Assembly: GCA_016842085.1 (NCBI GenBank)
Contig: JAEVEX010000037.1
Coordinates: 1-64,000 of the forward strand
DNA: 64,000 nt
Direction of reading: 5' to 3'
From: Candidatus Thermoflexus tengchongensis
GTDB taxonomy: Bacteria; Chloroflexota; Anaerolineae; Thermoflexales; Thermoflexaceae
The position numbers and the translations under genes are program-made. The notes beneath the pieces were generated by a model. It was given only the letters and a program-made list of their open reading frames with translations. It did no database searches and was not told where the DNA came from. This document shows, piece after piece, positions 32,706 through 33,063 of the stretch (its first letter is position 1; each line of letters starts with the position of its first letter).

Positions 32706-32948
32706 TTATGAGCGCAGCCGGGCCGCCAGCGCCTGGCGGATCTCCTCCACCTCCGCGTGGCGCCCCAGCTGTTTCTTCGAAAACACCAGCTCTCCGTTCA
32801 CCCGGACCTCGAAGACGCCCCCGCTGGAGGGGATGAGCGTCCAGGAGGCCACCTGGCCTTCGAATTCCTTGAGCAGTTCCTCGGTCAACCTGACCGCTCG
32901 AGGAAGATACCCTCAGACCGCACAGTATTCGATTTCAACCCGCAGCAT
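32706..32948 (-). CDS. SelW-like Rdx-family selenoprotein with in-frame UGA (Sec12)
   Basis: Reading from ATG 32948 gives MLRVEIEYCAVUGYLPRAV followed by LTEELLKEFEG, GGVFEVRVNGELVFSKK and a C-terminal helix, 80 residues in all. U12 is a TGA at 32913-32915. The order C-x-x-U-G-Y with a preceding beta strand, and the FEV..NG..VFSKK stretch, are hallmarks of SelW/Rdx thioredoxin-like redox proteins. The ATG has a perfect AGGAGGAGG site five bases upstream. The 60-residue frame beginning at TTG 32888 has no such site. A SECIS-like hairpin starts eight bases after the UGA. A conventional gene caller would report only the 60-residue part and miss the active site. Selenocysteine machinery genes are not in this window. 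A functional TGA stop is the alternative, but it would leave an 11-residue peptide. Confidence 0.85.
32877..32905 (-). promoter_or_regulatory. bacterial SECIS-like hairpin downstream of the selW UGA
   Basis: In the minus-strand RNA, TTCCT (32905-32901) pairs with AGGAA (32881-32877). A four-base bulge CGAG follows on the 5' side. CGGTC (32896-32892) pairs with GACCG (32886-32882), and the loop is AGGTT. The first loop G is about 22-23 bases after the UGA. Bacterial SECIS elements are upper stem-loops inside the coding sequence shortly after UGA, with G in a small apical loop and a bulge below, recognised by SelB. Confidence 0.7.
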
Positions 32949-33063
32949 TTGAACCTCCTCCTGAACAGGGTTCTGTCCGCGCGCTGGGTTTGTGGTGAAA
33001 GGGTCTTGCGTATGGCCTTTAGGAGTGTGAGGGCGGCTGAAGCCCCTGCCCGGATTTCCCATC

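Follow-up and report, generated by a model that had tools for sequence, protein, structure and literature searches.

A SelW-like gene of Thermoflexus with a conserved in-frame UGA that almost certainly encodes selenocysteine

In the window (the whole stretch of 64,000 nt that was analysed, from Candidatus Thermoflexus tengchongensis, a hot-spring bacterium of the Chloroflexota) we describe a small gene whose single in-frame TGA, judging from its sequence and those of its relatives, almost certainly encodes selenocysteine (Sec). The gene, its conserved UGA, a covarying hairpin and a full set of Sec machinery genes are all there in the sequence. We hold with very high confidence that the gene encodes a SelW-like protein, with a predicted thioredoxin fold and a CxxU centre, in which Sec would be inserted by way of SelB and the hairpin. 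The features considered are the following:

32706..32948, minus strand: SelW-like (Rdx family) predicted selenoprotein gene, 80 residues, single in-frame TGA
32913..32915, minus strand: UGA codon, predicted Sec 12 of the CxxU motif; TGA conserved in the genus and the class, Cys in other homologues
32954..32962, minus strand: Shine-Dalgarno site AGGAGGAGG, read directly in the sequence; the ATG start (32948-32946) lies five bases downstream
32882..32896, minus strand: predicted bacterial SECIS hairpin, stem CGGUCA/UGACCG, loop GGU

A preliminary description, made from the letters of the window, had placed at 32948-32706 of the minus strand an 11-residue head with a CAVU motif joined through a TGA at 32915-32913 to a 60-residue frame. 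All of this was found as claimed when re-read, and so was the AGGAGGAGG ribosome site ahead of the upstream ATG. The 80-residue translation, in which U stands for TGA, is MLRVEIEYCAVUGYLPRAVRLTEELLKEFEGQVASWTLIPSSGGVFEVRVNGELVFSKKQLGRHAEVEEIRQALAARLRS, with the UGA at the redox position of the N-terminal CxxU/CxxC motif that characterizes the family. Without read-through, what is left is the 60-residue frame, with a TTG start at 32888-32886 whose beginning is within the loop of the hairpin; we agree that plain gene-callers would cut the protein short in this way. AGGAGG or GGAGG stands at about the same spot in most Thermoflexus relatives and is weaker in G175, a Thermoflexus draft genome. A scan for promoters and terminators found nothing, and a plasmid search gave no match. 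On one side the gene has a neighbour that we take, from general knowledge, to be a GtrA-like membrane protein gene, and on the other a convergent one, presumably a CpaF-type ATPase gene. One or both of them stay near the SelW-like gene in other Thermoflexus genomes, and they give no hint to its function.

The SelW-like Rdx identity, which had been proposed by eye, is borne out by profile matches computed with C substituted for the stop. Precisely, the protein matches Pfam Rdx PF10262 over residues 3-74 (E=1.3e-23, 83.4 bits against a cut-off of 22.6), TIGR02174 CXXU_selWTH (71.2 bits against 34.2) and NCBIfam NF041051 SelTWH_Campy (96.3 bits against a curated cut-off of 88), the last being a family that, going by its name, was defined on Campylobacterota. 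The homology spans the TGA and is present on both its sides. Mammalian selenoprotein W (PDB 2npb) is a relative by sequence (E=3.7e-7); its SECIS, of a eukaryotic type unlike the bacterial one, is located in the 3′ UTR, whereas the bacterial SECIS is within the coding region. The bacterial Rdx structures PDB 3dex, 2fa8 and 2p0g belong by sequence to the same family, from which the window protein differs by the predicted Sec at its second redox position. From the similarity to these solved relatives we infer a thioredoxin-like fold.

The hairpin predicted after the UGA was compared with a published model of bacterial SECIS elements, which sets a loop of 3-9 nt, an (upper) stem of 4-16 bp, a G in the first two loop positions, a UGA spacing of 16-37 nt and an MFE of at most -7.5 kcal/mol (PMC13188914). 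The window hairpin has a 3-nt loop with G first, a stem of 6 bp, a spacing of 22 nt between the UGA and the beginning of the loop and an MFE of -7.8 kcal/mol, all within these ranges. Against shuffled sequences it is modest by itself (z about -1.4), other helices compete with it in longer folding windows, and an Rfam scan of the window returned one ordinary tRNA only, with no curated RNA family above threshold at the hairpin. Because folding of the single sequence is weak, we used comparative evidence.

Over 36 distinct Sec genes, the stem positions pair in 95.8% of cells; sliding the partner strand brings this down to 19-49%. Doubly changed stem cells number 18, against a shuffle mean of 4.4. 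The pair 21-33 is C-G in 28 of the 36 genes, G-C in six and U-A in two, and it is never broken. Its two bases are the third positions of a conserved Ala codon and of a codon that is Thr or Ala in most sequences; the two positions are mostly silent and covary, so that constraint on the protein does not explain them. The loop codon is AGG, AGT or AGC in 35/36 genes (related sequences, hence not 36 independent cases), and it is AGG in every case in which Arg is encoded; among eight genes of the window, AGG makes up 4% of Arg codons and AGT 4.5% of Ser codons. In a further set of named genomes, retrieved by protein similarity and with lineages partly shared with the 36-gene set, all 14 TGA genes form the six stem pairs, including those of bins labelled Gemmatimonadaceae and Acidobacteria. 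The stem is broken in Cys homologues, and the sampled Cys-type Rdx genes are without a hairpin, unlike the window gene. The SECIS-type hairpin that had been noticed in the single sequence thus gains its support from covariation: alone it is unconvincing, and it is the comparison of sequences across genes that makes the predicted element real.

The genome that carries the gene (3.9 Mb, 100 contigs, 95% complete) also encodes the machinery that the preliminary description had taken to be implied by it. We detected selA (564 bits), selB (327.7 bits summed over matches at its N-terminal and C-terminal ends, which share one open frame), selD (378 bits) and a tRNA-Sec above cut-off (80.8 bits, anticodon TCA by ARAGORN), together a full Sec machinery. 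Searches for tRNA-Sec and selB also match tRNA-Ser and other elongation factors, and for this reason these two were counted only above the curated cut-off. Since the machinery genes lie on different contigs, we checked G010, a genome of the same genus in one contig, in which the TGA-bearing Rdx gene, selA, selB and tRNA-Sec are all present; this excludes an artefact of contamination or binning. The selD gene (contig C90:11133-12068) is itself a likely selenoprotein gene, whose active-site stretch SCAGU contains a single in-frame TGA, at what we take to be the active-site position where many bacterial SelD proteins carry Sec. As for a Sec-type formate dehydrogenase, the matches in the genome were below cut-off and had no internal stop.

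Rdx matches were found in 179 of 396 genomes of the class; nearly all of the matches listed have exactly one in-frame TGA, and nine have none and carry Cys instead. The codon at position 12 was read directly at 50 loci, a few of which are the same place read twice, giving TGA 38 times, TGT 10 times and TGC twice; of 21 loci from named genomes, 14 have TGA there and seven have TGC or TGT. The preliminary description had held that Cys at this position in homologues would support Sec, and that a codon for neither residue in related strains, or stops of other types, would speak against it. Cys codons are indeed there (12/50 and 7/21 loci), close relatives keep the TGA, and neither TAA nor TAG was seen at any of these loci.

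These counts bear on one alternative, in which the TGA would truly end translation and the product would be the TTG-started 60-residue frame only, or nothing. Such a reading fits the standard genetic code, and the 60-residue frame is open, but relatives conserve the protein sequence of the redox head ahead of the TGA, the TTG starts inside the loop of the hairpin, dozens of genomes have TGA at this codon and no alternative other than Cys was seen, and a complete Sec machinery is encoded in the genome; we consider it very improbable. Equally improbable, in our judgement, is that the UGA is read through as Trp or a near-cognate residue: sequence alone cannot tell Sec from another residue, but homologues have Cys at the position, and both the hairpin and the machinery for Sec are found here. 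A pseudogene or a sequencing error is more improbable still, and the conservation of the TGA refutes it. One stop interrupting a frame that is open elsewhere could have arisen by mistake, and the G175 copy looks degraded, but the TGA recurs in several Thermoflexus genomes and records that were assembled separately, with 91-98% protein identity apart from G175. The assignment to the genus Thermoflexus comes from named records that are 96-97% identical. Reading the UGA as Sec in a CxxU motif, as first proposed, is supported by the conserved TGA, the Cys homologues, the hairpin and the machinery.

The degraded look of the G175 gene (contig C289) consists of many substitutions, one broken stem pair and ACG where ATG is expected; in this draft (84% complete) selA was not found, and tRNA-Sec and selB are present.

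Across the class, selA was matched in 170/179 Rdx-positive and 169/217 Rdx-negative genomes (odds ratio about 5, kinship ignored). The nine genomes with an Rdx match and no selA match weigh against the Sec reading. One of them, G325, has Cys copies only, six are at most 86% complete, G334 (about 630 contigs) reaches 90% completeness, and G146 reaches 95%.

G325 is a one-contig genome with two Rdx copies, both Cys-type, and in it selA gave no match and selB and tRNA-Sec were not above cut-off. G251, of the same genus, has selA, selB and tRNA-Sec, and carries a single Sec copy beside a single Cys paralogue. The two genomes illustrate how the Sec trait is lost in nature, with Cys paralogues retained in both. 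Separately, a Cys-type Rdx subfamily with the motif WLLRAAWMxQELL shows very similar sequences in bins of Chloroflexota, Nitrospirae, Gammaproteobacteria, Hydrogenedentota and Hyphomicrobiales, and may have spread by horizontal transfer.

In the bacterial system, a SECIS just after the UGA is bound by SelB, which delivers Sec-tRNA (PMC1794560). In the window gene, SelB with Sec-tRNA(UCA) would bind the hairpin just 3′ of the UGA, and the bound complex would insert Sec there with no termination; we infer that Sec is actually incorporated. A redox role has been suggested for SelW-like proteins from their motif (PMC1088965). By its likeness to SelW, the product is probably a small thiol/selenol redox protein with the C-x-x-U centre as its working site, or may be a redox partner.

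Bacterial SelW-like selenoproteins have long been known: a survey of the Sargasso Sea in 2005 found them to be the most abundant selenoprotein family (PMC1088965), and examples were tabulated in Genome Biol. in 2006 (PMC1794560). The Thermoflexus gene is therefore one more member of an established family. It shares with the known ones a small Rdx protein, the CxxU motif, a UGA followed by a bacterial SECIS and a G in the apical loop, and it differs in organism and lineage only (Thermoflexus, Chloroflexota), in nothing of kind. We found no paper on selenoproteins of Thermoflexus or Anaerolineae in particular in the open-access literature, a scope that makes this weak evidence of novelty.

We consider it likely that Sec-containing SelW is common and probably old in the class, with a hairpin nearly fixed, and that Sec-unaware gene-callers would truncate it in many of its genomes; the nearly fixed hairpin sequence also occurs in the Gemmatimonadaceae- and Acidobacteria-labelled bins. 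The understanding of Sec decoding is unchanged by this gene. What it is likely to correct is how a redox protein is annotated, both in Thermoflexus and in many further genomes of the class. The finding indicates the use of selenium by Thermoflexus and its relatives in the class, and makes selenium supply a testable growth factor for Thermoflexus hugenholtzii.
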